Source: a virus
Reading direction: 5' to 3' (one strand)
Virus record (IMG/VR): IMGVR_UViG_3300048930_001387
Span: 1 to 31,062 of that record
Length of the DNA stretch: 31,062 bases
The notes under the pieces: generated by a model
The model's database searches: none
What the model saw: only the letters and a program-made list of their open reading frames with translations
Told to the model about the DNA's origin: nothing
Part shown: positions 8,016 through 31,062 of the stretch, piece by piece
How positions within the stretch are numbered: the stretch's first letter is position 1
Layout: every line of letters begins with the position of its first letter
Program-made: the position numbers and the translations under genes

Positions 8016-8039
8016 GTCGCCGCGCCATCTCGAACCGTC

Positions 8040-8045: not shown

Positions 8046-8083
8046 CGCGCGACGCGGACTGGACCACCGCAAGGAGGCGCAGC

Positions 8084-8746: not shown

Positions 8747-8789
8747 CGGCGCAGCAGGCGGATCGTCCAGCACGGACGCGGAGGCAACC

Positions 8790-10109: not shown

Positions 10110-10147
10110 GCGGTCTGGATCAGCAACGAAGTATCGCGGTTGAGCTC

Positions 10148-10180
10148 GGCTCGCGCGTTCGACAGGACGCGCGAGCCTTT
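10148..10180 (+). terminator. Hairpin terminator after the major capsid gene
   Basis: GGCTCGCGCG (10148-10157) and CGCGCGAGCC (10168-10177) form a perfect 10-bp stem, extendable by three more pairs including one G-T wobble around a GACA loop. TTT follows. A second small stem (CGGCC/GGCCG, 10181-10195) lies just after it. Confidence 0.7.
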
Positions 10181-10210
10181 CGGCCAAAGAGGCCGGGAAA
10201 GGTTGATCCC

Positions 10211-10588: not shown

Positions 10589-10595
10589 TCGCACA

Positions 10596-10618
10596 CGCGC
10601 CGGCGTGTTGCCGGCGCG
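10596..10618 (+). terminator. GC-rich hairpin after the small head-region gene, possible terminator
   Basis: CGCGCCGGC and GCCGGCGCG form a perfect 9-bp stem with the loop GTGTT, beginning 8 bases after the stop. No T-run follows, so termination is uncertain. Confidence 0.4.
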
Positions 10619-10718
10619 CCCGGCGGCGGGCAAACGAATCGGATCCCGCTTGCCTGCTTGCGGGTGAAGGTTGGTCCAGGAACTCCCGCCGCCGGGCTCT
10701 GATCGATCGAGGTGCACC

Positions 10719-11300: not shown

Positions 11301-11314
11301 GCCATGGAGGCTTC

Positions 11315-12847: not shown

Positions 12848-12850
12848 CCC

Positions 12851-13189
12851 ATGGCCCTGCGCGCTGGCGAGCTGGACATGCCGATCACGATCGAGCACAA
12901 GGGCATCGCCCGGGACTCGTTCGGCGCACAGATCGAGACCTGGGGTCCGTGGGCTAAGTGCTTCGCGAAGTTCGAGCCGCTGAGCGGCGGCGAGTCGATC
13001 GAGGGAAGCCAACGCACGTCGGCGCAGACGGCGCGCTTCACGATTCGCTTCCGCCGCGGCGTCACGCCCGAGATGCGGATCCAGCACGACGGCCGGCGAT
13101 GGGACATCGTCGACGTCGCCTCGCCCGACCGCCGCGTCTCTCTCTTGATCACCGCCGTTTGCCGCGAGGTTGGTTCCGGCCGGAAGTAG
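12851..13189 (+). CDS. Head-tail joining (head closure) protein
   Basis: The 112-residue protein begins ALRAGELDMPITIEHKGI, matching the MxAGxLRxRVxIQ opening of the SPP1 gp16 / HK97 gp7 joining family, and carries the typical QTARFTIRFRRGVTPEMRI strand pair and DGRRWDIVDVASPDRR. It would plug the connector below the portal-bound ring. The ATG at 12851 has GGAGG in front. It lies 3 bases after the preceding gene and 9 before the next, within one operon. Confidence 0.88.
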   Translation: MALRAGELDMPITIEHKGIARDSFGAQIETWGPWAKCFAKFEPLSGGESIEGSQRTSAQTARFTIRFRRGVTPEMRIQHDGRRWDIVDVASPDRRVSLLITAVCREVGSGRK

Positions 13190-13198
13190 GAGCGAGCG

Positions 13199-13768
13199 AT
13201 GCGGGTGAACAAGGAGGTCCAGGTCATCGGCATGGACGAGGTACGAGCCGCGCTCAAACGCCTGCCAATGTCGATTCAGGTCTCCATCACCCGCTCTGCG
13301 CTTCGGGCCGGCGCCAAGGTCATGGCCACGAAGATCGCGTCGAAGACGCCGACCCGGAAGGGACAGGTTCTTCGCAAATCGATCATCGCTCAAACGCGCG
13401 TCATCAAGGGGAAGTCGCGAGATTTCCCCGAGTCGTATCGCGGCGAGGTCCTGGTCAAGAAGCGGCCTGGAAACAACCCCCGGAAGTACGCGCACCTGGT
13501 TGAATTCGGCACAAAGCCGCACGCGGTTGGAAAGCCAAAGAAGAAGAAGGCGAAGGCGAAGAAGGCCATGGGTGTCACGGTGAGGGCGATCGTGCCGACG
13601 CGCGGTCCCGGCATGCACCCGGGCGCGAAGCCCCACCGCATGTTCCAGGAGGGGTTTGACGAGGCGAAGCAGGCTGCTCTCGCCGCGGCTCTCGACGTCA
13701 TCAAGAAGCGGGTGCCCGCGGCGGTGCGCAAGGCACGCGGCGAAGTCAACGGGAAGGGCAAGTCATGA
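13199..13768 (+). CDS. HK97 gp10-like tail-completion protein
   Basis: The 189-residue protein shows the family pattern: an opening VIGMDEVRAALKRLPMS helix, LRAGAKVMATKIASKTPTRKG, a YAHLVEFGTKPH box near residues 98-109, and HPGAKPHRMFQEGFDE near 140-155. Members help attach the tail to the head. A Lys-rich insert (residues 112-125) lies between the two halves. The ribosome site AGGAGCG precedes the ATG, and the stop overlaps the next start (ATGA at 13765), showing coupled translation. Confidence 0.9.
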   Translation: MRVNKEVQVIGMDEVRAALKRLPMSIQVSITRSALRAGAKVMATKIASKTPTRKGQVLRKSIIAQTRVIKGKSRDFPESYRGEVLVKKRPGNNPRKYAHLVEFGTKPHAVGKPKKKKAKAKKAMGVTVRAIVPTRGPGMHPGAKPHRMFQEGFDEAKQAALAAALDVIKKRVPAAVRKARGEVNGKGKS

Positions 13769-14169
13769 AGATCGATGAAGCTCTCACCGCGTACTTGCAG
13801 ACGCTGCTCAAGAAGTGGGTGGACGACCGCGTCTACCCCGCCGAGCTCCCGCAAGGCGTGGAGTATCCGGCCGTGGTGTATCGCCAGCTCGACGACGAGG
13901 AAGAGATCAGCCAGGACGGGCCGTCGACGAAGCACCCCACGTACCAGTTCGAGTGCTACGCCAAGACGCTCGCCGCGGCGAAATCCGTGGCCGACGATCT
14001 CCGACTTGCTTTGAGCGGGTACAAGGGGAGAATGCCCGACGACCCAGGTGGCGTGCTGGTTGACGCGGCATTCTTTGTGAGCAGCAACACAAACTACTAC
14101 GACGAGGACGACGGGATCCGGGTGCATTGGGTAGCCGCTCAGTACGAGATCTGGTTCAACGAAGAGTGA
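13765..14169 (+). CDS. DUF3168-type tail terminator/completion protein
   Basis: The 134-residue product has the DUF3168 layout: an N-terminal helix (DEALTAYLQTLLKKWV), the VYPAELPQGVEYPAVVYRQL strand region and a C-terminal VHWVAAQYEIWFNEE strand. Proteins of this family (lambda gpU-like and HK97 gp11-like) cap the head-proximal end of the tail tube. The start overlaps the preceding stop by four bases. Order relative to gp10-like and tail-tube genes supports the call. Confidence 0.85.
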   Translation: MKIDEALTAYLQTLLKKWVDDRVYPAELPQGVEYPAVVYRQLDDEEEISQDGPSTKHPTYQFECYAKTLAAAKSVADDLRLALSGYKGRMPDDPGGVLVDAAFFVSSNTNYYDEDDGIRVHWVAAQYEIWFNEE

Positions 14170-14215
14170 TGGGCCGCCTGGACCGCGGCGCGAATGAGCA
14201 GGACAGGAGGTTGCG

Positions 14216-14650
14216 ATGGCGAAGACGAACGCGAAGACCGGTTTCGGCACGAAGATCTATCGCGGCGACGGCGCCACGCCCCAGGTGTTCGTCGCGATCG
14301 CCGAGATCGGCGATATCAGCGGGCCCGAGAAGCGCCTGCTGACCGAAGACGCAACGCACATGGAGAGCCCGCACGGCTATGTCGAGAAGATCCCGACGAT
14401 CCGTGAAGCCGGCGACGTGTCGTTCGACGCCCATCTGATCGAGGGCGATACCACGCATAGCCCGCTCTTCGAGGATCTCGACACGGGCACGGTTCGCGAC
14501 TTCCGCCTTGTCTTCCCTTCGGGCACGACCCGGATCTCGTTCACCGCGTTCGTCACGTCGATTGGACCGAGCTTCCCGGTGAAGGGCAAGATGGTCCGAT
14601 CGATCACCCTCTCCGTCACCGGCAAGCCTGTCGAAGAGCCCAATTCATGA
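14216..14650 (+). CDS. Major tail tube protein
   Basis: The 144-residue protein matches the tail-tube fold used by long noncontractile tails. It has a GFGTKIYRGDG start, AIAEIGDISGPEKRLLTEDATHMES, REAGDVSFDAHLIEGD, and a closing PVKGKMVRSITLSVTGKPVE. It would polymerise into hexameric rings around the tape measure. It has no C-terminal Ig-like add-on. AGGAGG precedes the ATG at 14216, and the stop overlaps the next gene start (ATGA at 14647). Confidence 0.9.
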   Translation: MAKTNAKTGFGTKIYRGDGATPQVFVAIAEIGDISGPEKRLLTEDATHMESPHGYVEKIPTIREAGDVSFDAHLIEGDTTHSPLFEDLDTGTVRDFRLVFPSGTTRISFTAFVTSIGPSFPVKGKMVRSITLSVTGKPVEEPNS

Positions 14651-15099
14651 CCAAGGCCAAACCCGCTATCGCCGTCGATGCCGCCCCCACCATCCCAACC
14701 GCCAAGTTCACGCTCGGCGGGAATGAGTACTCGATCGAGTTCAACCTCGATCACCTCCTCAAGATCGAGGAGGCGGCGAAGCTGCCCATCATGAAGCTCG
14801 CCGAGGAGCACCTCGACCAGCTCGCGGTGCGAGACGCGGAAGGGAACCCGGTCAAAGAGCCGACCGACGAGCAGAGCTCCGAACGCTTCAAGTCCGTGCC
14901 GGCGACTCGCATGCGCGCACTGGTTGCAGCGTGCATTCCGATGCCGGTAGAGACCGTGCCAATGGTCGGACTCGGCAACGCGTTCATCCGCCTCGCGACG
15001 ACGCTGAGTCAGGCGGTGAACCAGGTCATGGGAGCTGGCGACGAGGACGAAGACGAGGACGCGGTGCCTCAGCGCCCTACCGCAGCGTCCGGGAGCTGA
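14647..15099 (+). CDS. Tail assembly chaperone, gpG-like
   Basis: The 150-residue acidic protein carries a KFTLGGNEYSIEFNLDHLLKIEEA opening strand-helix (residues 19-42) common to tail assembly chaperones. It ends with an acidic DEDEDED segment. Such proteins bind the tape measure during tail assembly, and most siphoviruses make a longer form by -1 frameshifting into the next frame. Here the next frame continues in the -1 register past the stop at 15097. The ATG overlaps the tail-tube stop. Confidence 0.78.
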   Translation: MTKAKPAIAVDAAPTIPTAKFTLGGNEYSIEFNLDHLLKIEEAAKLPIMKLAEEHLDQLAVRDAEGNPVKEPTDEQSSERFKSVPATRMRALVAACIPMPVETVPMVGLGNAFIRLATTLSQAVNQVMGAGDEDEDEDAVPQRPTAASGS

Positions 15100-15371
15100 T
15101 CGCCTGGGCGCGGGTGGAGTTGCAGATGCCGGCGGCGGAGCTGATGGCCACGAGGCCCAGCGACATCGGCTACCTGGTCGACGCGTGGCGCGAGCGTGAG
15201 GAGCGGCTGGACATTCGTGCCGGCGTGGCGCTCAGCGCCATCGCCTTGATGAAGAGCGGCGGAAAGAGCCGCTGCGAGCCATGGGACTTTTACGCGAGCA
15301 TCCGGCGGCCGCCGCCGCCAGATGACGCCACGGTGGAGGCGAAGATCCGCGCGGCATTGCTTGGAGGGTGA
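15030..15371 (+). CDS. Tail assembly chaperone extension (gpGT-type, -1 frame)
   Basis: The recognisable part starts at about 15078 (YRSVRELIAWARVELQM) and ends with the small helical domain WDFYASIRRPPPPDDAT before the stop at 15369. It lies in the -1 frame relative to the upstream chaperone and has no good ribosome site of its own, so it is probably made as a fusion by ribosomal slippage, as in lambda G-T. The lambda-like heptamer is not present. GGGAGCT at 15030-15036, in the correct phase, is the closest match. An in-frame ATG with a usable ribosome site at the domain start was not found. The stop is 3 bases before the tape measure gene. Confidence 0.65.
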   Translation, partial: GSWRRGRRRGRGASAPYRSVRELIAWARVELQMPAAELMATRPSDIGYLVDAWREREERLDIRAGVALSAIALMKSGGKSRCEPWDFYASIRRPPPPDDATVEAKIRAALLGG

Positions 15372-15374
15372 GAG

Positions 15375-17351
15375 ATGTCTGAAGCAATCGGCGCAGTGCG
15401 GATCGACATTACCGCCAACATGGCGACGCTAGTGCGCTCCTTGAAGGAAGCCGACAAAGAGCTCAAGGTCATGCAGACGCAGATGAAGCGTCTAAGCGAC
15501 CAGGCCGCGAAGTCGTTTGATCAGATGACCAAGGGGGCCCAGGCCTTCGAGCGCGTCGGCAAGGACCTCACCAAGAGCGTCACTCTCCCTCTGGTAGCCT
15601 TCGCCGCGGCGGCGATCAAGGCGGCGGACCCGGCAGGCAAGTTCACCGAGCGGCTCAAGGACATGGGGATCGAGGCCCTTGTCACTTTGCAGCCGATTGG
15701 CAACGCGCTCATCTCCGCGTTCGACGCCTTCGAACCCACGATTCGGCGAGCTATCTCCGTCGTCGGATTACTCGCTGACAAGTTCGGTGCACTCAATCCA
15801 GAGACCCAGCGAATGGTCATCATCTCCGGCGCGGCGGCGGCGGCGCTTGGCCCGCTGATCATTGCGGGCGCGGCAACCGCCAAGGTCGTCGGCATCGCTG
15901 TCGCCGGCGTCAAGAACCTGGTCAGTGTTGCGAAGATCTTCTCGTTCGTCGTTTCGCCACCGATGCTCGTGGCGATCGCGGCCATCGGCGCCGCGCTGAT
16001 TGGCCTCGAGCTCGGCACGTACTTCTACGACGAGTTCAAGATCGTGCAGTTGGCGGCCGCAGCTGCGATCTCGTTTGCCGAGGAACAGTTCATTTACCTA
16101 GACGCGGCGTGGAAGGGCGTCGTTGCTGCGATCCGCGAGGCGTGGGATTCAACGATGGGGTTCGTGCAGGAGCGACTGGCCGCCGTGATTGAGGACGGCT
16201 CAGAAGCGCTCGCGTATGTCGGCCTCATAAGCGAGGAGCAGGAGAGGTCGGCAAAGGACTCGGCCGCGAAGATGCGGGCGGCATTCGGCAATTTCTCGTA
16301 CAAGGACGAGGTCGCACGCATCAACAAGGAGATGGCGGCAGGCCTCGAAGAGGTGCGCCAGACCTACCAGCGCACGGTTGAGCAGATCGAGAAAGAGTTC
16401 AACGGGCAGGATCGCAAGGGGCAGGACCCGCTGCAGCACCTCGGCAGCAGCTTCTCGAAGATCGGCGATCAGATCGAGCCGTTGCTCCAGCCGCTGCGGG
16501 ACAAGTTCGGCGCGTTCCTGGCGGAGGTCGACAAGTACGCCGCTGGCTCGCAGGATCGGGCGGCCGCGTGGAAGAGCGACGCGGACAGCGTGAAGGAGAT
16601 GACCAAGGCAACGGCCGATGCCAAGAAGGCCATGGAGCAGATGCAGAGCGAGGCAGAGCGGCTCCGCTTCGAGATCTACCCGGAGGAGAAGCTCCAGGCG
16701 GACATCGACCGGGTCTACGAGCTCGCCGCTGCATTCCCTGAGATCCTCGGGGCGCCGGAAGTTCAGAAAGCTATCTCGATGCTCACTGCGGATTACGAGA
16801 AGGCCATCAACAAGATCAAGAAGAAGACGGATACGTGGCAAGACAAGTTTCGCAACATGTTCAAGGACTTTGGTCGGGATGCGTCGAGGACCTTTGCCGA
16901 CTTCGCCACAGGTGCCGATGTTGCCTTTGACCAGGTGCTTCTGAGCTGGACGCGGATGGCGATTGAGATGGCGGCCCAGCAGTGGGTGTTTGGTCCGGCG
17001 TTCGGCGCGGTCGGCGAAAAGCTGTTCGGACCTGCGCCCGCGGCAGCGACCGCGCCGGTGGCGCTCAAGGCCAGCTCACCCGTGGCGATGGCGGCAACCT
17101 CTCCGCTCGACCACATGAGGCGCAGCTTCGGGTCCGACGGGCTGACGGCGGGCGGCGGTGTTTCGGTCCAGATCTACGACCAGCGCAGCGGCGGCCAGGC
17201 AGTGCAAACATCGGAGTCCCGCGGACCTGATGGCGAGAAGATGCTCCGCGTCCTGATTCGCGACGAGGTTGGGCAGATGGCCGGTGACGGCGGGATGGAT
17301 CGGGTTCTCGGGCCAACCTACGGCACACGCCGGCGTCCGAGAACGCGGTAG
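15375..17351 (+). CDS. Tape measure protein
   Basis: The 658-residue protein sets tail length and resides inside the tube. It begins with an amphipathic coiled-coil region (residues 20-60), continues with hydrophobic segments at about 150-225 (including AAAAALGPLIIAGAATAKVV), and has two further helical coils at 300-350 and 400-500. Near the end, DQVLLSWTRMAIEMAAQQWVFGPAFG is a common tape measure motif. At the usual figure of about 1.5 angstroms per residue the tail would be near 100 nm long. A ribosome site GGAGGG precedes the ATG. The gene directly follows the chaperones, which is diagnostic. Confidence 0.93.
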   Translation: MSEAIGAVRIDITANMATLVRSLKEADKELKVMQTQMKRLSDQAAKSFDQMTKGAQAFERVGKDLTKSVTLPLVAFAAAAIKAADPAGKFTERLKDMGIEALVTLQPIGNALISAFDAFEPTIRRAISVVGLLADKFGALNPETQRMVIISGAAAAALGPLIIAGAATAKVVGIAVAGVKNLVSVAKIFSFVVSPPMLVAIAAIGAALIGLELGTYFYDEFKIVQLAAAAAISFAEEQFIYLDAAWKGVVAAIREAWDSTMGFVQERLAAVIEDGSEALAYVGLISEEQERSAKDSAAKMRAAFGNFSYKDEVARINKEMAAGLEEVRQTYQRTVEQIEKEFNGQDRKGQDPLQHLGSSFSKIGDQIEPLLQPLRDKFGAFLAEVDKYAAGSQDRAAAWKSDADSVKEMTKATADAKKAMEQMQSEAERLRFEIYPEEKLQADIDRVYELAAAFPEILGAPEVQKAISMLTADYEKAINKIKKKTDTWQDKFRNMFKDFGRDASRTFADFATGADVAFDQVLLSWTRMAIEMAAQQWVFGPAFGAVGEKLFGPAPAAATAPVALKASSPVAMAATSPLDHMRRSFGSDGLTAGGGVSVQIYDQRSGGQAVQTSESRGPDGEKMLRVLIRDEVGQMAGDGGMDRVLGPTYGTRRRPRTR

Positions 17352-19987: not shown

Positions 19988-20047
19988 TTGACTGACACGA
20001 CGCTGTCAGCCGCATTCCACAGTTCATCCCCAAATGACAGGGTAAAT

Positions 20048-20063
20048 GTGCAGGATCCTGCAC
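20048..20063. promoter_or_regulatory. 16-bp perfect palindrome, candidate operator
   Basis: GTGCAGGATCCTGCAC reads the same on both strands. ATCCTGCA recurs at about 20074-20081 as an extra half-site, and a TATGCT box begins 47 bases downstream. This is the layout of a dimeric-repressor operator. The cognate regulator is unknown. Confidence 0.45.
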
Positions 20064-20109
20064 TCTGCGCCGAATCCTGCAAAGTGGGGACACACCGAAT
20101 AGCTCCGGG

Positions 20110-20115
20110 TATGCT
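20110..20115 (+). promoter_or_regulatory. Promoter-like TATGCT box in the noncoding insert
   Basis: GGGTATGCT resembles the box before the lipoprotein gene (17377-17384). A transcript would start near A20122 with no start codon in a good context for about 300 bases. Confidence 0.4.
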
Positions 20116-20121
20116 CTGCGA

Positions 20122-20262
20122 ACGCGCACGGACCAGCGCGAGTCGGCAGGAGAAAGGAGCTCTCGGAGCCACGACGAAAGATTGCCCAGTTCTTGGGCAC
20201 GACAGGTACCACTCAAGGCCAAAACGTGAACGAGCCGCGCTACCAACGCGGCCCGTTCGGAC
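20122..20262 (+). ncRNA. Candidate small structured RNA
   Basis: The interval runs from the predicted start after TATGCT to a strong two-part hairpin at 20228-20261 (GAACG-AG-CCGCG paired with CGCGG-CC-CGTTC). A smaller stem TGCCCA/TGGGCA lies inside. No ORF with a ribosome site is present. An RNA gene is inferred from layout only; no known RNA family is recognised. Confidence 0.3.
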
Positions 20263-20448
20263 AATCTAGCCCCGTTGCTGTTCACCACCCGTAGCTTTAC
20301 AGGTGTGGGCTGTGTGCTTGAATCTAGCGACTCAGCCTGCCCGCTGTCCAGTCCGTGAGCAAATTCTGTCGGCTCGCCGACGTAAGCCTCTGTGCCCGCT
20401 CGCGACTGGGCAGTCTCCACAAACAACTCACCGAGAAGGAGCATCCCC

Positions 20449-20574
20449 ATGGACTTCAAGGGACAGCTTCTCTTCGCGTTCGCCGAGGGCACCAGGCCCG
20501 CCGATGAACCGAAGATTGTCTTGGTGCCCGCGTACTTGCGGCGGAGGCCTCGCCCCCGTCGGAAGAGGCGATAG
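20449..20574 (+). CDS. 41-residue ORF with an Arg-rich tail
   Basis: The frame starts at an ATG with a well-placed GAAGGAG site. The product begins MDFKGQLLFAFAEGT, has a middle PKIVLVPAYL segment and ends in a run of arginines broken by Pro and Lys. It is followed after five bases by a strong terminator, so it sits at the end of a small transcription unit between two tail genes. I recognise no family. The Arg tail suggests nucleic-acid or membrane interaction. The ribosome site and terminator argue that it is real. Confidence 0.55.
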   Translation: MDFKGQLLFAFAEGTRPADEPKIVLVPAYLRRRPRPRRKRR

Positions 20575-20579
20575 CACGC

Positions 20580-20612
20580 CCGGCCCGCGCCCCAACCGGC
20601 GCGGGCCGGTTT
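20580..20612 (+). terminator. Strong intrinsic terminator before the tail-hub gene
   Basis: CCGGCCCGCGCC (20580-20591) pairs perfectly with GGCGCGGGCCGG (20598-20609) around CCAACC, followed by TTT. It ends the small transcription unit and isolates the hub gene, which has its own promoter-like box. Confidence 0.8.
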
Positions 20613-20625
20613 ACCTCTCACCGTC

Positions 20626-20631
20626 TAGTCT
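20626..20631 (+). promoter_or_regulatory. Promoter-like TAGTCT box six bases before the tail-hub ATG
   Basis: It lies in ACCGTCTAGTCTCGCGC (20620-20636), identical to 8034-8050. The ATG at 20638 falls exactly seven bases after the box, and a terminator lies directly upstream, so a start here is needed for the next gene. No Shine-Dalgarno site is present: a leaderless mRNA is implied. Confidence 0.6.
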
Positions 20632-20637
20632 CGCGCC

Positions 20638-23600: not shown

Positions 23601-25212
23601 AGTGGTCACCGCGGCCGGCGCCTCGACGCGTTTGGAGTTCTCAACGCCGATCCCCACCGGCGATCCGCGTCCGAAGGTCGGAGATCTCGCCTTGTTCGGC
23701 GAGGCCGGGCTTGAGACGCGCGAGTGCGTCATCAAGGCGATCACGATGGATCGCGACCTGGCGGCGACGCTCACCCTCGTCGATCATGCCCCAGCGATTC
23801 ACGATGCCGACGTCGGCGAGATCCCCGCGTACGTCCCGGGCATCACCATCCCGCCGCTCTACCTCGATCGTCCTGCCGCGCCCGTGATCGAGTCGATCCG
23901 CAGCGACGACTACGTCATGATTCGCGACGCCGATGGAAGCTTGCGGCCGCGGATGGTCGTGACGCTCCTGCCGGCGAGCTCGAACCCGCCGAGGCCCACG
24001 CACTCGCAGCTGCGGATCCGCCTCAAGCCCGACGGCGGTGCGGATCCGGTTGGCCCGTGGCGGCACTTCCCGCTGCAGCCCATCGACGATCTCACGCTCG
24101 ACGCGGACCAGGTCGAGGAAGGCGCGACGTACCAGGTCGCGGTGCGCTACGCGACGGCCGCCGGCGTCACGAGCCTCTGGACAACGACCGAGCACACGAT
24201 CGTCGGGAAGGTCAACCCGCCGCCGGACGTCCAGGCGTTCGACGTCGTGCGCCTCGGCGACGGAACGCGGCGCTACACCTGGGACCTGGGCACGATCCCG
24301 CCCGACATCGCCGGCGTCGTGATCAGGTACGGGCCATCCGTCGCCGCGTGGGGCTCGCTCAGCCCGCTCCACACCGGGCTCCTCGAGGGCGCGTCGCCGA
24401 TTGAGCTCAACGTACCTCCGGCCGGCACGTGGTACTTCGCGATCAAGATGGTCGACACCTCCGGCAACGAGAGCGTCAACGCGCTGGGCATCACGCGCAC
24501 GCTCGGACCAGAGCGCCGCGAGGGCATTGCGTTCCTCGAGGACGCGAGGATCTCCGGATGGCCTGGCACAAAGACCGGCTGCTACGTCTCGAACGACACG
24601 TACCTCTGGAGCCAGGGCACGGAGACCTGGAGCACGCTGCCGGCGACGTGGGACGACTGGACGTCATGGACGATGGACCCAACGGACCCGATCGTCTACC
24701 AGCAGCAGGTCGACGTCGGCTACGTCTTCGACTTCTCGCCCTCGGTGTACATCTACGCCGACGGCGCCTCGATCACCGAGCTGCAGTACTCGACGGACGG
24801 TGCGACCTGGTCGGCGTGGGCGGTTGTCTCGAGCTTCCACGGCGTGACGATCCGCGCGAGGCACGTGCGGGTGCGAGCAACGGTGAGCAGCGCTGGATTG
24901 ACCACGGTCCCGGTGCTCCAGCAGCTGGTCCTCACGCTACGCGCCGAGACCAAGACGCACTCGATCGACAACCTCAACACGCTGGCCCTCGGCGGCACGA
25001 ACCGCATCGGGGTTGGCGATGTTCGCCTGCCGATCCCCGCCGGCGTCTTTGGCGTCATCCAGTCGGTGATGGTGAGCTTCAACGGAACCGGCGCGGGATG
25101 GACGTACGAGATCGTCGACAAGGACTGGCTGCTGGGCCCGCGGGTCCGCCTCTACAACGCCGCCGGCGAGCTCGCCGATGCGACGATCGACGCGACGATC
25201 CGAGGGCTCTAG
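20638..25212 (+). CDS. Giant tail-tip protein: NlpC/P60 peptidase, gpI-like segment and J-type hub with PA14-like domain
   Basis: The 1524-residue protein merges genes that are separate in lambda. Residues 1-140 form an NlpC/P60 peptidase with Cys32 (LDCWGLV), His101 (RPHVGV) and His113, probably cutting host peptidoglycan at entry. Residues 155-220 are a small beta-grasp-like segment and 221-281 a hydrophobic stretch, as in lambda gpI. The J-type hub follows (GARNEARPFGVVPEVLGDHVVAP-type region near residue 300). Residues 480-600 look like a PA14 domain (GYSWELTAWLYAPTAGAYQF, DSSDGAEVWVDGRIV, KGYHQLKVRMEC). After more hub sequence, Fn3-like modules span about 1080-1290, and a C-terminal receptor-binding part ends the protein. 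The ATG lies seven bases after a TAGTCT box, without ribosome site. The role is penetration and receptor contact. Confidence 0.9.
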   Translation: MRATSTPASWARQYIGIPFTMNGRERRDGLDCWGLVRLVYAERLGIILPSHTDGYQGVDDSEGLRRVLVHETQIRRAWSRREVDDIQIGDVVQLDLSKRPHVGVMVSRGQMLHAFEGSDSCIERLDAPLWERRVRGFWRYDAGVQVASRPKIFGEPTRLELPAGASIDEILVAAGVKPSPHIRVFVGDRLVPREVWAHVRPRAGRMVSISCVAAGGGNGGKTALRIIAAIAIIAVAWYLGPVAYGAYAGITTAAAVGTQGAAIATGIIGMAGTLLLSALAPPPKSRIGGNDAGVSPVITGARNEARPFGVVPEVLGDHVVAPLYAALPFTEIAGDDQYLRLLFTPGYGPVEISDLKIGDTALDEFEGVEYEFRPGLPDDAPCGLYSNTILEEGLSIELIAADGWTTRTTNTNASEISIDVTWPQGLAHYGGNGSRSNLTVALEVQYSPTGAGTWTSINVASPSEQRTMDFLFRTPEVVLGGQGSHGTKISWGDGFPDPKPGYLPASGYSWELTAWLYAPTAGAYQFGLDSSDGAEVWVDGRIVASWYGSHATAGGGTPDFAAHAGSITLTKGYHQLKVRMECRSGGGAIALGWIKPGDVAFEIVPASRLKGSANGSGSARYRWFETSVYTSSIGLTSNRAEQLRRSLAWAVEPGQYDVRVRRVTADTPSDSDVDTVYWTALRTIRNSDPIKLKNVARIAMRIKATDQLQGVVDTFNCRVRRIIPDWDAETGTWITRATSNPASCYRNVLQGPANKRPLADARIDLATLQDWHEHCEEEGFSYNTVLDSTGTVFDRLQEIAAAGRASFGMRDGKYSVVIDRPQTVPAQHLSPRNSYGFRGRRVFPELPHAVLVRFVNKENGYQFDERPVYDDGQSEETATLFESMELAGVTSWDEAWRHGRYQLAAAKLRREVYELSCDAEHLSATRGDLVLVTHDVMLVGIASGRVAHVEISGSDCIAVQLDEEIVMEDGTDYVVRFRLEDGTSLLCPVVTAAGASTRLEFSTPIPTGDPRPKVGDLALFGEAGLETRECVIKAITMDRDLAATLTLVDHAPAIHDADVGEIPAYVPGITIPPLYLDRPAAPVIESIRSDDYVMIRDADGSLRPRMVVTLLPASSNPPRPTHSQLRIRLKPDGGADPVGPWRHFPLQPIDDLTLDADQVEEGATYQVAVRYATAAGVTSLWTTTEHTIVGKVNPPPDVQAFDVVRLGDGTRRYTWDLGTIPPDIAGVVIRYGPSVAAWGSLSPLHTGLLEGASPIELNVPPAGTWYFAIKMVDTSGNESVNALGITRTLGPERREGIAFLEDARISGWPGTKTGCYVSNDTYLWSQGTETWSTLPATWDDWTSWTMDPTDPIVYQQQVDVGYVFDFSPSVYIYADGASITELQYSTDGATWSAWAVVSSFHGVTIRARHVRVRATVSSAGLTTVPVLQQLVLTLRAETKTHSIDNLNTLALGGTNRIGVGDVRLPIPAGVFGVIQSVMVSFNGTGAGWTYEIVDKDWLLGPRVRLYNAAGELADATIDATIRGL

Positions 25213-25215
25213 TCT
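25210..25215 (+). promoter_or_regulatory. Promoter-like TAGTCT box before the tail fibre gene
   Basis: CTCTAGTCTGGCGCGC overlaps the hub stop codon and matches the late-gene box (TCTAGTCTSGCGC). A start near 25222 would leave a 30-nt leader with the ribosome site AGGAG before the ATG at 25252. Confidence 0.5.
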
Positions 25216-25251
25216 GGCGCGCACTCGAAGACCTCACCAGGAGCACGCCTC

Positions 25252-26088
25252 ATGACTTCATGGCCAGCATCCGTCGGGTTCGGAACCACCAACGTCGACG
25301 CGGGGACCGACACCCCCTCGGTGGCGCGGGTCGACATCAAGAACCTGATGGACGACGTCGCCGAGATGATCACGGCGCGCGGCGAGCCCGACGGCGTTGC
25401 CGAGCTGGACTCCGGAGGCAAGGTCCCGGTGGCCCAGCTCCCCGCCGGCGCTGTCAACGGGGTCGCGTCCCTTGACGGGGCGTCCAAGGTGCCCGTAGCC
25501 CAGCTCCCTGCCCTTCCCGTCGCCAACGGGCTCCACGTGGTCGACACTCCGGGCTCGAGCACCTGGACCGTGCCAGCGGGCATTACGCGGCTCCTGGTCG
25601 AGGCGGTTGGCGGAGGCGGCGGCGGTGGGTTCAGCCTCGCCACGCCCCACGGCGGGGGCGGTGGAGCCGGCGGCGTGGCCATGAAGCTCCTGACCGTCGC
25701 TCCGGGCGACACGATCAACATCACCGCCGGCGCGGCGGGCACCGGGGGAGCCATCGGGCCCAGCGACCAGAACGGGGTGAACGGCGGGAATACCACGGTG
25801 GGCGTCAACGGCGTCACCGCGGTCACGGCGACGGGGGGTGGCGGTGGCGGGGGTGGAGGCACCGCGTACGGCGGCGGCGGCGGCACGCCCACGGGCGGGG
25901 ACGCCAACTACCCGGGGGGCGCGGGGCAGACCGGCGAGGACATCGGCGGCATGGGTGGCGCGAACGCCAAGACCGGAACCGCCGCTGGCGGGACGCCGAA
26001 GTGGGGCGGGGGCGGCTACGGCTCGGGCACGAGCGCCGGCGTGGGCGGGTACAACGGCGGCACGGGCGGCGTGATCATCTGGTATTGA
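25252..26088 (+). CDS. Glycine-rich tail fibre / adhesin
   Basis: The 278-residue protein has three parts. Residues 1-45 are a probable attachment and helical region. Residues 49-65 and 71-87 are two copies of the fibre repeat GVAxLDxxxKVPVAQLP. From residue 120 to the end the sequence is built of Gly runs (for example GGGGGGGG and GGGGYGSGTSAGVGGYNGG) spaced by short hydrophobic strands, like glycine-rich adhesins at phage fibre tips that stack polyglycine helices. It is therefore a likely receptor-binding protein. It ends in GVIIWY. Convergent genes and a hairpin follow. No fibre-assembly chaperone gene is recognised next to it. Confidence 0.85.
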   Translation: MTSWPASVGFGTTNVDAGTDTPSVARVDIKNLMDDVAEMITARGEPDGVAELDSGGKVPVAQLPAGAVNGVASLDGASKVPVAQLPALPVANGLHVVDTPGSSTWTVPAGITRLLVEAVGGGGGGGFSLATPHGGGGGAGGVAMKLLTVAPGDTINITAGAAGTGGAIGPSDQNGVNGGNTTVGVNGVTAVTATGGGGGGGGGTAYGGGGGTPTGGDANYPGGAGQTGEDIGGMGGANAKTGTAAGGTPKWGGGGYGSGTSAGVGGYNGGTGGVIIWY

Positions 26089-26090
26089 AA

Positions 26091-26110
26091 GAAGCCGCTC
26101 GCGCGGCTTC
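26091..26110. terminator. Bidirectional hairpin between convergent arms
   Basis: GAAGCCGC and GCGGCTTC form a perfect 8-bp stem with a TCGC loop, two bases after the fibre stop. On the minus strand it is followed by TTTC, so it suits leftward transcription from the right arm as well. Confidence 0.65.
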
Positions 26111-26165
26111 GTGTATGGAACTCTGTATGAGATCGGGCTGAAACAACAGCCGCGTTCGGGTGCCG

Positions 26166-26717
26166 TCAGATGCCGACGCCGACCCCGATGCCCACCTTCC
26201 CGGCGCGACGAACGACCTCAACGGGCTCCGTTCCGCCGCTGTAGGTGATCGTCATCTCGACGTCATCGACCTGGAACAACGCACCGGCGGTGATGTCGAC
26301 GATGCCGGCTTTGACGTGGCACCCGAAGGTCGCGGAGTTGACGTCCGCGACGGTGAGGTCAGATGACCACAGATCGTCCGCGGCTCCGAAGACCTGGTCG
26401 TCGAGTGTCTCGCTCGCGGGGTCCGCGGACTTGACGCCCTTGGTTGTCTCCCCCAGGACGAGGAAGATCGTGAAGGCCTCGCCCGCACCGAGCGGCTGCG
26501 CCGAGCACCGGAGCGTGACGGCGATCCCCTCGAGCGTGGCGTCCTCGGGGATCGCGAAGTCGAAGTCGGTGCAGAGGAGCAGGTTCGATTCCTGCCCGGT
26601 CTCGATGATCACCTGGGCGGGAACATCGTCGGCAACCGTCGCGTCCGCGGGGCTGGTCCACTCGATGCCTGTCGCGTCCTGGTCGATCGAGCTCGGAACC
26701 CTCGTTCTACTACCCAT
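26166..26717 (-). CDS. Virion-like beta-rich protein at the end of the leftward operon
   Basis: From the ATG at 26717 (AAGGAG upstream) the product has 183 residues. The middle contains FAIPEDATLEGIAVTLRCSA, a phrase typical of phage beta-sandwich proteins, and a later VDDVEMTITYSGG strand. The last residues are a Gly/Val run. No signal or membrane segment is visible. It resembles small structural or fibre-associated proteins and is next to the fibre gene but on the opposite strand, the second virion-like gene in this window that reads against the late operon. A longer frame starts at 26810 but lacks a ribosome site. Confidence 0.65.
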   Translation of the reverse strand: MGSRTRVPSSIDQDATGIEWTSPADATVADDVPAQVIIETGQESNLLLCTDFDFAIPEDATLEGIAVTLRCSAQPLGAGEAFTIFLVLGETTKGVKSADPASETLDDQVFGAADDLWSSDLTVADVNSATFGCHVKAGIVDITAGALFQVDDVEMTITYSGGTEPVEVVRRAGKVGIGVGVGI

Positions 26718-26751
26718 CGTCAGTTCTCCTTCCGGCCGCGGGCCTGGTTCG

Positions 26752-27177
26752 TCAGGATCGCGGTGAACCGTCGTCGCCAATCGGGCCATGGCGAGTGCGG
26801 TGCTCGTCATTCAGGTCCGTCATGATGCGCTGAATCTCTGGAGGAAGATCGCTCATGCTGGTCGCGCCCGTCTCTCTGGCCGCGGTTGCGATCAGCATCA
26901 CCGTGAGACGCTCGATGTTCCGCCCGATGTTCCGCTCGTTCTGCTCGATGCGAAGCTCGATGCGGCGCTGGGAACGACGCTGCTTTGCGAGCGCTCCAAG
27001 GAACTGTCGCCGTTGCTTTGTGAGCGACAGCTCGTGCTTGTTGGTGATCGCCAGGAGCGTGTCGGCGTACTGCTTGTCGCGAGCTGGGAGCACCTTTGCG
27101 ATGCCGTACCAGACCACGAAAGCGAGCAGCCCCATCGCGCCGCCCTGGATGACGAGATCGACGATGACCTTCTCCAT
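26752..27177 (-). CDS. Small membrane protein with a coiled-coil tail, possible holin-like gene
   Basis: The 141-residue protein has one hydrophobic segment at about residues 10-30 (IQGGAMGLLAFVVWYGIAKVL), then a long basic and acidic helix (residues 35-95, with KQRRQFLGALAKQRRSQRR). That architecture is seen in single-pass holin-like and spanin-like phage proteins. It lies between a lipoprotein gene and a structural-like gene. AAGGAG precedes the ATG. A lysis role is suggested by the neighbours; no holin family is actually recognised. Confidence 0.55.
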   Translation of the reverse strand: MEKVIVDLVIQGGAMGLLAFVVWYGIAKVLPARDKQYADTLLAITNKHELSLTKQRRQFLGALAKQRRSQRRIELRIEQNERNIGRNIERLTVMLIATAARETGATSMSDLPPEIQRIMTDLNDEHRTRHGPIGDDGSPRS

Positions 27178-27189
27178 GCAGGACGCTCC

Positions 27190-28044
27190 TTAACCGAGGG
27201 TGGTGCCGGGGGTGATCGCCTCGCCGCGCTGGGCGCGATCCACGAGCGCCTTGCCCGCGGCTCCCTGCCAGGAGCTCAGCAGGTCCTTGATCGTCGGGTC
27301 CTTCAGGGCCTCGTCTATCGCAGGCACCTTCGTCCGCAGCACGTCGATCGAGTCGACGACGCGCGTCGCGGCGTGCGACACCTGCGTCAGGGTTCCCTCC
27401 GCAGCCTCCGCACGCTCGGACTCGTCCGCGGCGTTCTCCTCCGCCTGCTGCGCCTTGGCCGCGAGCTCCTGCTTGCCGCGCCCAGCGACCACGCCTCCGA
27501 CCAGCGTGCCGCCGCCGCCAATGAGCAGCGCCTGCAGGATGGTGTTGATCGAGCTGAAGCCTGGCACCGCGGCGACACCAGGGATCGACGTCACCGCCCC
27601 GAGGATCGCGGAACGCTGGGCCTGCTGGCGACTCAGATCCGCGATCGCGAGCTCGACGCCATCGGCGATGCGACGCGCCTCGGATTCACGCCGAGCCTGG
27701 TTCGTGGCGACACGATCGACGACGTCGGCGACTTGGGCCTCGGTGTTGAGCCGGAGCGAGTCGAGCTCCTCCTCGGAACCGTTGGCGATTCGCTTCGCGG
27801 CGATCTCCGTCTGGGTGCGAAGGCGCCGGAGCTCCGCCTCTGCTTCCTGCCTCTCACGCGCGTCGGCCTGCTCCTGCTCCGCCGCGTAGGTGATCCGTTG
27901 CAGCTCGATCTCCGCCGACGTCGCCGGCTGGCCCGTGTAGGGGCTTGTGGTTCTGGCCTCGAGCATGCTGCAGCCAGGCGTGAGGACGCCGACGCTCACG
28001 GCCGCAGCGCCAGCGAGTACGAGCAGAATTGATGTCCACTTCAT
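27190..28044 (-). CDS. Coiled-coil lipoprotein, possible spanin-type lysis protein
   Basis: The 284-residue precursor begins with a hydrophobic signal (residues 5-21) and a weak lipobox ending TPGC, placing the lipidated residue at Cys25. Residues 43-146 are a long charged coiled coil. A hydrophobic Gly-rich segment follows at about 150-190 (LLIGGGGTLVGGVVAG), then a second coiled coil to residue 235. Lipoproteins with long coiled coils act as outer-membrane spanins in gram-negative phages, but spanins are usually smaller and lack an internal hydrophobic stretch, so the role is open. The ribosome site AAGGGAG lies in the stem of a large inverted repeat (28051-28090). Confidence 0.65.
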   Translation of the reverse strand: MKWTSILLVLAGAAAVSVGVLTPGCSMLEARTTSPYTGQPATSAEIELQRITYAAEQEQADARERQEAEAELRRLRTQTEIAAKRIANGSEEELDSLRLNTEAQVADVVDRVATNQARRESEARRIADGVELAIADLSRQQAQRSAILGAVTSIPGVAAVPGFSSINTILQALLIGGGGTLVGGVVAGRGKQELAAKAQQAEENAADESERAEAAEGTLTQVSHAATRVVDSIDVLRTKVPAIDEALKDPTIKDLLSSWQGAAGKALVDRAQRGEAITPGTTLG

Positions 28045-28050
28045 GCAAAC

Positions 28051-28090
28051 GCTCCCTTGGCCCAGGCGTCGCAGCCTAGACCAAGGGAGC
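28051..28090 (-). promoter_or_regulatory. 17-bp RNA hairpin that would bury the lipoprotein gene's ribosome site
   Basis: On the minus strand, GCTCCCTTGG and CCAAGGGAGC are a perfect 10-bp inverted repeat. TCT/GGG can pair through wobbles, and AGGC/GCCT continues the stem to a TGCGAC loop. The Shine-Dalgarno AAGGGAG is in the 3' arm, six bases before the ATG at 28044. Transcripts arriving from upstream genes would fold it away. It could also be a terminator, although no T-run follows. Confidence 0.6.
28073..28078 (-). promoter_or_regulatory. Promoter-like TAGGCT box inside the hairpin
   Basis: TAGGCT on the minus strand would start a transcript near 28066, after the 5' arm of the hairpin, so its ribosome site would be free. 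The -10 assignment is by resemblance to the other TAGNNT boxes. Confidence 0.4.
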
Positions 28091-28112
28091 TATTCGTTCC
28101 TCTGACCAGGAT

Positions 28113-28262
28113 TCAGGTCAGGCCGGTTTCCGCAACGAAGTCCCGCAAGCCGACCAAGGTCTGCGACATCCACCGCGACTCGTCCTTGGTGCGCATCGAC
28201 CCCCAGACAACGATGTCCTCAAAGCCCCATGCCGCGGCTTGCGTCACGACCTGGCGGAGATG
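28113..28262 (-). pseudogene. C-terminal remnant of the glycoside-hydrolase-like gene, out of frame
   Basis: Read from about 28262 the frame gives WEGEHLRQVVTQAAAWGFED and IVVWGSM, then KDESRW and a final helix. This is the natural end of a TIM-barrel-like protein and joins the upstream frame if one T is added in TTTGGG near 28258-28263. The GTG at the opening of the longer frame is not meaningful. Confidence 0.6.
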
Positions 28263-28918
28263 CTCACCTTCCCAAACACGTCGGAGCCCACCGAGATCAG
28301 GCCGTACGTCTTGAGGCCCGACGCCTTCGCCGCTCGCACCGCGGCAAGCCGTTCGCCAAACCAATGGTTCCAGTTCGCCTCGTAGCTGGCCCAGGGTCGA
28401 CCTTGCACGAGCAGCTTGGTGTAGACGTAGAGCGAGACGAAGCAGCAGGACGCGAGACCGCTGGGGGCGGTCTTCACCGCGATCCGATCGTTGTTGTTGT
28501 ATCGGAAGTCGTGGTAGAAGCCGATGTCGTTGCCCATCCCTCGGTCGATGATGGCGCGCACGAGCTCCGCGAGGTACGGCTTGGCGGCCGGATCGTCGAG
28601 TGGCAGGCTCTCGACGTTGAGCATCACCGGGCCGTCGAAGTCCTTGGGGAGCTCGCCGCGGACATACCCGTCGATCGAACCCGACAACGCCTTGAGGTTG
28701 CCGGATCGCCAGTCGCCGCCGGCCTGGTACACCGTGCCGTCGTCGTCAACCCGCACGCCCTTCTTGCGGATGGTCTCGACCTGATCGGGTTTGCACGTCC
28801 ACTTGTGCGGCATCGCGGGAACGAGGTGCTGATAGATCGTGTGCACGCGGAAGAATCCGGGAGGAACGACCACCTCCTGGATTCCCACTGCGTGATTGAT
28901 CGCCGTGTGCAGACGCAT
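28244..28918 (-). CDS. Glycoside-hydrolase-like protein (possible endolysin or depolymerase), frameshifted near its end
   Basis: The 224-residue frame has a strong ribosome site (GGAGGG) before its ATG at 28918. Its pattern suggests an alpha/beta barrel: DGPVMLNVES near residues 115-124 with a candidate acidic catalytic residue, NDIGFYHDFRYNN, and after the frameshift GFEDIVVWGS, a phrase reminiscent of hyaluronidase-like barrels. Reading through the frameshift near 28260 adds about 48 residues and completes the barrel. The gene lies just upstream of the membrane-protein and lipoprotein genes, so it could be the lysis enzyme, but no standard endolysin motif is visible. Function is therefore tentative. 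Confidence 0.5.
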   Translation of the reverse strand: MRLHTAINHAVGIQEVVVPPGFFRVHTIYQHLVPAMPHKWTCKPDQVETIRKKGVRVDDDGTVYQAGGDWRSGNLKALSGSIDGYVRGELPKDFDGPVMLNVESLPLDDPAAKPYLAELVRAIIDRGMGNDIGFYHDFRYNNNDRIAVKTAPSGLASCCFVSLYVYTKLLVQGRPWASYEANWNHWFGERLAAVRAAKASGLKTYGLISVGSDVFGKVSISARS

Positions 28919-29135
28919 GTTGAGGCCCTCCGATTGCCTTGGGCTTGATCAGCCGGCTCGGCCGTGGCGTGGGCTCGAACCGCTCGGTGACGCGCGTCAC
29001 CGGCCAGTCTCTAGGCGCATCGACGCACACCTTCCGCCGCTTTCCTTGCTTGTAGAAGTACAGCTTCACCGGGCCCGACGGCGTCTGGATCACCGCCGTC
29101 ATGTCTTTGGTGATCGTGAGGATGAGATGACTCAT
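28746..29135 (-). CDS. CsrA-like RNA-binding regulator with an overlapping tail
   Basis: The first 52 residues align by eye with CsrA: HLILTITKD for the opening strand, SGPVKLYFYKQGKRRKVCVDAPRDWPVTR for the central strands (residues 20-48, split here only for description), where CVDAPRDWPVTR matches the VNAPKEVAVHR stretch and Arg48 corresponds to the RNA-contacting Arg44. The N-terminal Arg6-Arg7 pair is absent. CsrA dimers bind GGA in mRNA leaders and control translation. The frame then continues for about 75 more residues rich in Arg, Pro and Gly, of which 173 nt overlap the next gene; these are probably nonfunctional. The start overlaps the RusA stop (ATGA). Homology is moderate and the function inferred. 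Confidence 0.6.
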   Translation of the reverse strand: MSHLILTITKDMTAVIQTPSGPVKLYFYKQGKRRKVCVDAPRDWPVTRVTERFEPTPRPSRLIKPKAIGGPQHASAHGDQSRSGNPGGGRSSRILPRAHDLSAPRSRDAAQVDVQTRSGRDHPQEGRAG

Positions 29136-29644
29136 GCGAGCTCCTGTTCAGTGAGTTTCCAGATGCGGATGATCGCGCCGGGCGTTCCGCCTGGTGGCGC
29201 GTAGTCCTTCGCGAGCGATTGCCGAATGACCTGGGCGTCGTCGGCCCAGACGACTTTGGTCAACGCGTCCTCGGTGGAACGCATGAGCTTGAGGACGTCG
29301 GGCTTCACACTCGGGTACCGCGGTGCGGAGGGCTTGAGCTCGCCGCGGCTGTTGAGGTGCGAAGCCGGCCGCTTCATGATGAACTCGGCGATGACGACAA
29401 AGGCTCCGTCCATCGGCTCAGCCAGGTCGCGAGCTCGCATCGCGATCGCACCGTGCGAGCGGACGACGTCCTTCCAGGCGGCGTTGCCCTTGCCGTCGTC
29501 GACCAAGCGCACGATCGGCCGGCCGTTCTTCGTGATGTACTTGCCGCCGCGCTTCAGCGGGAACGCCGACTTCGAACCGCCCGGCGCTGGGATGCCGCGA
29601 ACCGCGATCCGGAGATCTGGTTCACGGGTTGGGAGTGGGACCAA
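29132..29644 (-). CDS. rusA: RusA-family Holliday junction resolvase
   Basis: From a TTG at 29644 the product has 170 residues; the frame is open from an ATG at 29668, but that ATG lies in a hairpin without ribosome site, whereas AAGGAGG sits seven bases before the TTG. The N-terminal strand IAVRGIPAPGGSK and the KPDVLKLMRSTEDALTKVVWADDAQV region (from about residue 114) identify the family. The usual PDxDN motif reads PDVLK, so the second metal-binding Asp is missing, while Asp116, Asp126 and the DD pair remain. It would resolve recombination intermediates in phage DNA. It is coupled to the CsrA-like gene by an ATGA overlap. Confidence 0.82.
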   Translation of the reverse strand: MVPLPTREPDLRIAVRGIPAPGGSKSAFPLKRGGKYITKNGRPIVRLVDDGKGNAAWKDVVRSHGAIAMRARDLAEPMDGAFVVIAEFIMKRPASHLNSRGELKPSAPRYPSVKPDVLKLMRSTEDALTKVVWADDAQVIRQSLAKDYAPPGGTPGAIIRIWKLTEQELA

Positions 29645-29663
29645 TGGTTTCCTCCTTGGAAAT

Positions 29664-29693
29664 GCCATCCACGTCCCGTCGGTCGTGGATGGC
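29664..29693 (-). promoter_or_regulatory. 10-bp perfect inverted repeat in front of the resolvase gene
   Basis: GCCATCCACG and CGTGGATGGC flank a 10-base loop between the preceding stop (29706) and the resolvase ribosome site. It covers the ATG at 29668. It could be a regulatory hairpin, an operator or a weak terminator. Confidence 0.45.
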
Positions 29694-29705
29694 GTATGGG
29701 GTTGG

Positions 29706-29897
29706 TCACTCAGTGGGGGAGATCACTTCGAGACGAGACATCGTGAACCAATTCTCCTTCGGCTCGTTCTTTTCGCCAACGGGCCCTTCGACGCGATACC
29801 GATCCTGCTCGTTGAGGTAGTGGCAGTGCGCCGTCACCACGCCTTGAAACCCCGTGATGCGATCACGAACATGATCACCGAGATCAACCTTCTGCAT
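29706..29897 (-). CDS. Small conserved phage protein with a GDxVxDxxTGFxGxVT motif
   Basis: The 63-residue protein reads DLGDHVRDRITGFQGVVTAH followed by CHYLNEQDRYRVEG. This short beta-barrel-like pattern is common among small early proteins of many prophages and recalls KOW/SH3-type folds. Its biochemical role is unknown. The ribosome site is GGAGA, and an inverted repeat lies in its leader. It is part of the leftward early operon just upstream of the resolvase gene. Confidence 0.75.
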   Translation of the reverse strand: MQKVDLGDHVRDRITGFQGVVTAHCHYLNEQDRYRVEGPVGEKNEPKENWFTMSRLEVISPTE

Positions 29898-29914
29898 TCG
29901 CGAATCTCCAATGC

Positions 29915-29936
29915 GCGTGCCGCCTATTCGGCACGC
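29915..29936 (-). promoter_or_regulatory. 8-bp perfect inverted repeat at a gene junction of the early operon
   Basis: GCGTGCCG and CGGCACGC enclose CCTATT (plus-strand reading). The hairpin spans the stop codon of the upstream gene and lies 18 bases before the next ATG, outside its ribosome site. Terminator-like or leader structure; no T-run. Confidence 0.35.
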
Positions 29937-30145
29937 AAATCCCGCTCGGGCCCGGGTAGAGCCGGCGCGGGTTCAACTTGATTGAGGAGCGCCGCCGCCG
30001 CCCGTAGCTGGCGAGCTCGGAGGTTTCGCCAACGGATGACAGAGGCGCCGGGCACATACGGGAGACGCCGCGCTTGCTCCGCCTGGGCCTCTTCGTCCTT
30101 CGCCAGGTCGACAAGGAACGCGGCGAGCTTCTCCGGCGTGGTCAC
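29924..30145 (-). CDS. Small helical early protein, unknown function
   Basis: The 73-residue product starts at a GTG with AAGGAG upstream. It is largely helical (TTPEKLAAFLVDLAKDEEAQ, then RNLRARQLRAAAALLNQV) with a Pro-rich end. A longer frame extends to 30493 but has no ribosome site and overlaps two other genes, so the short form is preferred. The start overlaps the preceding stop (GTGA at 30142-30145). No family is recognised. Confidence 0.65.
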   Translation of the reverse strand: MTTPEKLAAFLVDLAKDEEAQAEQARRLPYVPGASVIRWRNLRARQLRAAAALLNQVEPAPALPGPERDLRAE

Positions 30146-30300
30146 TTGATCTCCTTCAGCTTCGATGCGACTCGATCGATGGACTGGTGTGTGCGGCGCT
30201 GGAGCCGGCGTGACTCGACGCCGATGCGCCAGCACGCGTACTCGGAACCGACAACGAACGCGGCGAGGATTGCCGCGAAGAGCCAGGCAGCCGGTGTCAT
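30142..30300 (-). CDS. 52-residue single-pass membrane protein
   Basis: The ATG at 30300 overlaps the preceding stop (ATGA). Residues 5-20 (AWLFAAILAAFVVGSE) are hydrophobic and the rest is basic and helical (RIGVESRRLQRRTHQSIDR), giving a short N-anchored membrane protein. Such genes are frequent among phage early clusters; the function is unknown. It lacks a clear ribosome site of its own and is likely translationally coupled. Confidence 0.6.
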   Translation of the reverse strand: MTPAAWLFAAILAAFVVGSEYACWRIGVESRRLQRRTHQSIDRVASKLKEIK

Positions 30301-30515
30301 CCTGCGGTCCTCTCTCCCGCTGGCAGCTGGGAGTCGTTGTCGGCGTCGCGCCACTTCGCGTGTACGCGCTTGGTGTGGAGCTCGACCATCGCATCGCCGC
30401 GGCGAAGCACGACGATCGAGGTGTTGATGGAGACGATCTCGCCGGCGAGGATGCACGTGGGGCTCTCTCGCCACCATGCGAATATGCCGGCACGGAGCTC
30501 GGGGGCAGTGCTCAT
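30297..30515 (-). CDS. Small early protein with a beta-barrel-like pattern
   Basis: From the ATG at 30515, preceded by GGAGGTGGAG, the product has 72 residues. The centre reads CILAGEIVSINTSIVVLRRGDAMVELHTKRVHAKW, with short strands resembling a small SH3/KOW-like barrel (quoted as the region of residues 20-54). The family is unknown. Both ends overlap neighbours by four bases. A longer frame from 30560 is less likely because the ribosome site fits 30515. Confidence 0.6.
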   Translation of the reverse strand: MSTAPELRAGIFAWWRESPTCILAGEIVSINTSIVVLRRGDAMVELHTKRVHAKWRDADNDSQLPAGERTAG

Positions 30516-30826
30516 GCTCCACCTCCACACCTGCGACACCGCAGCAACCCGTCCGTGCACGTAAAGACCTCCGCGTTAGCATCGCGGCAGACCGCGCACT
30601 CGGCGTTCTCGTCTTTGACATGCTCGACGCGTGTGAGACGATCGACATGCTCGCACGCCGCGACGCACTGGTAGATCTCCGTCCATCGCCTGATCAACAC
30701 ATCGATCGAGTCGGTTGGATCGCCCCTTTCGGTGAAGTCGCTGCGATCCCGGTAGCACGAGTTGATCTGGTCTTGCACCATGCGACGCATCGCGTCGTAC
30801 TCGGATTGGGTTGGCTTGTCGCTCAT
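30512..30826 (-). CDS. Small early protein with a C-terminal zinc ribbon
   Basis: From the ATG at 30826 (GGAGG upstream) the product has 104 residues. The first 70 are helical and charged (SDKPTQSEYDAMRRMVQDQ and RRWTEIYQCVAACEHVDRL). The C-terminus has two Cys pairs, CAVC and CRRC, about 20 residues apart, which would bind zinc. Nucleic-acid or protein binding is plausible. Start and stop overlap neighbours by four bases. A longer frame from 30982 overlaps the next gene and lacks a ribosome site. Confidence 0.65.
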   Translation of the reverse strand: MSDKPTQSEYDAMRRMVQDQINSCYRDRSDFTERGDPTDSIDVLIRRWTEIYQCVAACEHVDRLTRVEHVKDENAECAVCRDANAEVFTCTDGLLRCRRCGGGA

Positions 30827-31062
30827 GACGTGCCTCCGATCCGCTTGATGTCTCCGCCTCTCACCCACACTGCAACGGTCCACTGGTCCTCGTTCGTCAT
30901 GAAGTTGAGCGAAGGGTGGCAGTCGACGACGAGGATCGACGGGAGCTCTGGATAGAACGATGGGCGAACCCTGTGGATCCACACGATTAAGCCCGCATCA
31001 TCTCCATTGATAATCTCGCACCTGTCGCCCACGATGATTTCGGCACCATTGCTGTCCTTCAT
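30823..31062 (-). CDS. Small early protein with a KOW-like start, at the window edge
   Basis: The 79-residue frame begins at an ATG that coincides with the last base of the window, so a further upstream start cannot be excluded. It opens MKDSNGAEIIVGDRCEIING and continues DDAGLIVWIHRV, a pattern seen in small SH3/KOW-like phage proteins, followed by a Trp/Val-rich half ending VRGGDIKRIG. Role unknown. The stop overlaps the next start by four bases. Confidence 0.65.
   Translation of the reverse strand: MKDSNGAEIIVGDRCEIINGDDAGLIVWIHRVRPSFYPELPSILVVDCHPSLNFMTNEDQWTVAVWVRGGDIKRIGGTS

Follow-up and report, generated by a model that had tools for sequence, protein, structure and literature searches.

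A predicted hairpin over the ribosome-binding site of a 284-residue open reading frame in a G+C-rich phage genome, and its likeness to the leader hairpins of phage T4

A hairpin on the minus strand at positions 28090–28051 encloses the Shine-Dalgarno sequence (SD) of a 284-aa open reading frame (ORF; 27190–28044, minus strand), and the reading we favor, to which we give slightly better than even chances, is that it is a cis-acting RNA element masking the translation start of this ORF in read-through RNA. The nucleotide sequence, the predicted fold, the overlap with the SD, and the exceptional strength of the SD occlusion carry this reading. The window, by which we mean the whole stretch of DNA analyzed, is an IMG/VR virus record of 31,062 bases with 66% G+C.

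The plus-strand genes of the window extend from approximately 1.6 to 26.1 kb and include those coding for a methyltransferase, the large terminase, and a lambda-J-like tail tip protein. The leftwards-oriented genes on the minus strand include an integrase (1–1623) and a RusA-like resolvase (29132–29668), with further genes down to 26166, and the hairpin is placed in this leftward cluster, between a gene at 28113–28918 and the 284-aa ORF. Positions 1–40 of the window and the start of the related contig L002 resemble the 3' end of a tRNA (GGTTCGAATCC...TGCCCA) and overlap the 3' end of the integrase gene; this start is common to the two sequences, which diverge beyond it, as is expected of an attachment core. 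No repeat of this tRNA-like sequence occurs at the right end; the record may therefore not be complete. At −38 kcal/mol, the fold that ranks first in stability among the 50-nt folds of the window is at 10148–10177 on the plus strand, a 13-pair hairpin followed by TTTCGG and located directly after the ORF at 8790–10109 (probably the major capsid gene); it is likely a terminator or an attenuator. Approximately 650 bases before the J-like gene (19988–20637) are without a clear gene and hold two strong hairpins (20228–20258 and 20580–20609) and several TANNNT sites; the ORFs in this segment have no family match, and it is possibly a small inserted gene.

The minus-strand hairpin at 28090–28051 consists of a 6-nt loop on an uninterrupted stem of 17 pairs, of which 15 are Watson-Crick and two are U-G. 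Its outer stem consists of ten perfect pairs between the 5' arm GCTCCCTTGG (28090–28081), designated the anti-SD arm from its sequence, its fold, and the folding of RNAs with different starts, and the 3' arm CCAAGGGAGC (28060–28051). In the upper stem TCTAGGC (28080–28074) faces GCCTGGG (28067–28061) in seven pairs, including the two U-G pairs at 28080/28061 and 28078/28063, and the loop, TGCGAC, occupies 28073–28068. The SD, AAGGGAG (28058–28052), is contained in the 3' outer arm, which is followed directly by GTTTGC and then the ATG at 28044–28042. A preliminary description of this DNA had proposed ten perfect pairs plus seven more with two U-G wobbles on the minus strand, and both the sequence and the fold match it exactly.

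The MFE of the 69-nt minus-strand stretch is −39.7 kcal/mol, compared with −20.2 ± 2.9 in shuffled sequences (z = −6.6), with none of 200 shuffles as stable as the native hairpin; these and the other folding energies were modeled at 37°C, which may not be the growth temperature of the host. The hairpin is the longest uninterrupted one in the window on either strand (the runner-up has 14 pairs) and ranks second in stability among its 50-nt folds. When the whole window was shuffled 400 times as a single strand, runs of at least 17 pairs arose in 7 of the shuffles (approximately 2%) and runs with at least 15 Watson-Crick pairs in 5; a 17-pair hairpin anywhere in the 31 kb, with both strands counted, has a chance of a few percent before its position on the SD is asked about. 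The hairpin is real as a predicted fold and notable for its position, in that it fills most of a 68-nt intergenic gap and lies over the SD, in a minus-strand cluster that is otherwise tightly packed. The plus-strand RNA of the same region has two mismatches and an energy of −28.3, so that only minus-strand RNA pairs without a mismatch; this and the two U-G pairs argue for a function in minus-strand RNA and against a DNA operator, a candidate that was rejected with the dyad being imperfect as DNA (15 of 17 positions) and complementary as RNA.

AAGGGAG is the sole SD of the 284-aa ORF, 7 nt before the ATG. Freeing it costs 22.0 kcal/mol, the highest value among 166 ORFs from the window and related phage contigs (next-highest 15.7, mean 6.5, s.d. 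3.3), these being SD-bearing ORFs of coding-like codon composition taken by a simple filter rather than a curated set. When RNAs with different starts are folded, the cost stays at 17–20 kcal/mol for those beginning at 28090 or upstream, and is only 2.4–6.7 kcal/mol for those beginning between approximately 28083 and 28061. In read-through RNA the SD is predicted to be fully paired, at 17–22 kcal/mol, as in a switch of the T4 gene e type. Two claims of the preliminary description, that AAGGGAG would be locked in read-through RNA and that an RNA without the 5' arm would have a free ribosome site, are therefore borne out by folding, the first with the strongest occlusion among the 166 ORFs.

We propose that RNA would enter the hairpin from the leftward minus-strand gene cluster, that CUCCCUU in the 5' arm would pair with the AAGGGAG once this is transcribed and block ribosome entry, and that in the cell the 284-aa ORF would be translated poorly or not at all for as long as the 5' arm stays paired. 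Relief would come from removal or opening of the 5' arm, whether by a downstream RNA start, by cleavage, or by a factor. The final stop codon of the upstream gene (28115–28113) is 22 nt ahead of the stem, so that a terminating ribosome with a typical footprint would not be expected to reach it; translational coupling to the upstream gene was rejected with this distance judged too great.

The 284-aa ORF has a G+C content by codon position of 0.72/0.51/0.85, which is coding-like and resembles that of TerL and J of this phage. Hydropathy indicates an N-terminal hydrophobic segment and a further hydrophobic stretch at residues ~145–187, and the structure model is mostly helical with long helices, at low confidence (pLDDT 64). 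No match was found in Pfam, PHROGs, or NCBIfam. Atypical lipoboxes exist, and that presumed for this ORF, TPGC, would be one of them. It departs from the spanin lipobox consensus, [LVI][ASTVI][GAS]C (PMC6139136), and the hydrophobic stretch is central in the 284 residues rather than a C-terminal TMD, so that the ORF does not have the features of a spanin lipoprotein (o- or u-spanin). With this lipobox and no family match, its earlier designation as a lipoprotein is unproven. The next gene downstream (26752–27177, minus strand) codes for a 141-aa product with one N-terminal hydrophobic segment (residues 4–22, by hydropathy) and no family match, which appears i-spanin- or holin-like in topology only; the two genes together are a possible, putative lysis cassette that matches no family model. 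The upstream gene (28113–28918, minus strand) is split between two frames, 28918–28244 and then the −1 frame from ~28262 to 28113. Both frames share coding composition (GC3 0.86 and 0.84), the second reads ...EHLRQVVTQ..., and no canonical slippery heptamer was seen at the junction near 28262; the split may reflect a sequencing error, decay, or a programmed frameshift. The structure model of the upstream protein has a pLDDT of 38.

The preliminary description had also placed a promoter within the stem, with TAGGCT as its −10 box, giving a T4 gene e-type switch in which an RNA without the 5' arm is made and translated later and would time a possible lysis gene, a proposal that we consider unlikely. 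TAGGCT does lie where it had been located, at 28078–28073 on the minus strand, with one base belonging to the loop and the others to the 5' arm. RNA starts between approximately 28083 and 28061 would free the SD (2.4–6.7 versus about 20 kcal/mol), which makes an internal start physically possible, if still unproven. TAGGCT is moreover unique in the window and, in the interval 24939–31062, the sole minus-strand TANNNT site; the 18 TANNNT sites in 31 kb correspond to approximately a 4% chance of one falling in the 68-nt gap, and this rarity is a faint hint in favor of a promoter. However, TAGGCT matches TATAAT at only three of six positions, the best −35 at a spacing of 15–19 nt matches at two of six, and there is no extended −10; the total of 5/12 is at the common noise level in the window. 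A consensus promoter scan of 26000–31062 was likewise negative, as judged by the sigma-70 consensus, which may not be that of the host or the phage, and on these counts the start at TAGGCT was not upheld. The best site nearby, CTGACC-18-ACGAAT (7/12, with the −10 at 28097), would start an RNA near 28085, but approximately 220 sites per strand attain 7/12 and we regard it as noise. Nor was a phage sigma factor or late-transcription gene recognized among the ORFs tested, and the lysis function of the 284-aa ORF is itself putative. We give a low probability to the stronger form of this proposal, in which a G+C-rich phage would have independently evolved the gene e solution, with a non-sigma-70 start in the stem giving late expression of a membrane or lysis protein while the read-through RNA stays silent.

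The hairpin could instead be a terminator or an RNA 3'-end stabilizer of the upstream gene that abuts the next ATG by chance, and to this we assign the same standing as to the promoter switch, that of an unlikely alternative. The stem is highly stable and G+C-rich and begins 22 nt past the upstream stop codon, but its tail, GTTTGCATG, is poor in U. The U-tract score is 2.8 on the minus strand and 3.3 on the plus strand, compared with 5.5 for a control, the classic-looking terminator in contig L031 that has nearly the same arms; on neither strand does a U-tract directly follow the G+C-rich stem, and neither was called as a terminator when this alternative, named in the preliminary description, was checked. 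An SD at the correct spacing within the arm would also have to be an accident. The hairpin may act as a U-poor terminator, a class with which it shares a strong stem between two genes; it differs in overlapping the SD of the next gene and in being without a U-tract. An RNase III-type double-strand processing site, where cutting of the 17-bp stem would remove the 5' arm and activate translation, agrees with the long uninterrupted duplex, perfect only in minus-strand RNA, and with the freeing of the SD on folding without the 5' arm; to our knowledge such sites cannot be recognized from sequence alone, and we think it improbable. A chance hairpin without function is the least probable of these explanations. 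Equally long runs do occur in approximately 2% of the single-strand shuffled windows, and the homologue searches, being empty, offer neither conservation nor covariation in support of a function; but the hairpin coincides with the SD, on the coding strand, within an intergenic gap of 68 nt, and the joint chance of these is far smaller than a few percent.

Searches for relatives returned no homologue of the 284-aa ORF in the viral contigs, genome contigs, or phages, and no homologous leader in the viral, genome, phage, or plasmid collections. Neither the neighboring genes nor TerL and J led to leader-bearing relatives that reach the hairpin; the only close phage relatives are L002 (matching window positions 1–15977) and L019 (ending just past J), neither of which covers it. 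A relative of a 214-aa protein in L040 was rejected as a source of a leader homologue, its gene context being different. There is no second copy of the hairpin element in the record and no plasmid match to it. Rfam gave no match in the window at the gathering score, the best sub-threshold match being a frameshift element (23.2 bits, where the cut-off is 43), which is taken as generic hairpin similarity.

A scan of all viral contigs for the arm pattern found 20 loci, most of them unrelated to the hairpin; among the 20 are the terminator-like hairpin of L031 and one independent SD-masking hairpin. The latter is present in three contigs of the same virus (L022:7984–8028, L032:1363–1407, and L034:2366–2410), where a 112-aa ORF has its SD covered by nearly the same arms (CTCCCTTGG/CCAAGGGAG); the opening cost of this SD is 18.6–19.6, or about 2 once the 5' arm is left out. 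The genes are unrelated to those of the window, the 112-aa ORF being just downstream of a GroEL-like gene. In both cases pairing with an AAGGGAG SD is enough to account for the arms, and the second case was found by pattern, so we regard the similarity of the arms as convergence and the two hairpins as convergent rather than homologous. The GroEL-linked hairpin further differs in carrying TATAGT, which agrees with the −10 consensus at five of six positions, just inside the stem at the top of the 5' arm, and judging from these motifs it would fit the promoter-in-hairpin idea better than the hairpin of the window does.

Most of the good documentation of SD-masking hairpins that time gene expression comes from T4-like phages. 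The structurally clear example described here, from a phage that is rich in G+C and has lambda-like tail genes, together with the second, unrelated one in the GroEL-bearing contigs, suggests that the same device is found repeatedly among unrelated phages; the folding of leaders offers a way to look for more of them. A promoter inside the stem would, if true, be a neat case of convergence, one that is not established for the window hairpin. In T4, the SD or start codon of genes e, soc, 49, and I-TevI is masked in long early RNA, whereas late gene e RNAs that start within the 5' arm are translated; sequestration in gene e cuts lysozyme synthesis about 100-fold, and the late promoter is TATAAATA (PMC3014915). 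Leader hairpins that sequester the ribosome-binding site are also present at mobE and segB (PMC2988022). The window hairpin resembles those of e, soc, 49, and I-TevI in that the SD of read-through RNA lies within a stable stem and that, on folding, RNA without the 5' arm leaves it free. It differs in that the T4 genes have mapped late RNA starts and TATAAATA in the 5' arm, where here there is a candidate, TAGGCT, known from its sequence, and in that gene e codes for a proven lysozyme, whereas the 284-aa ORF matched no family. The gene e logic that the preliminary description invoked therefore stands in part: the masking of the SD agrees with the fold and the opening cost, but the late promoter does not, as nothing similar to TATAAATA is present at the hairpin and there is no acceptable sigma-70 site. 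In its masking the window hairpin would work like the known sequestering hairpins of T4 e, soc, and I-TevI; it is not put forward as an established case of the early/late switch.
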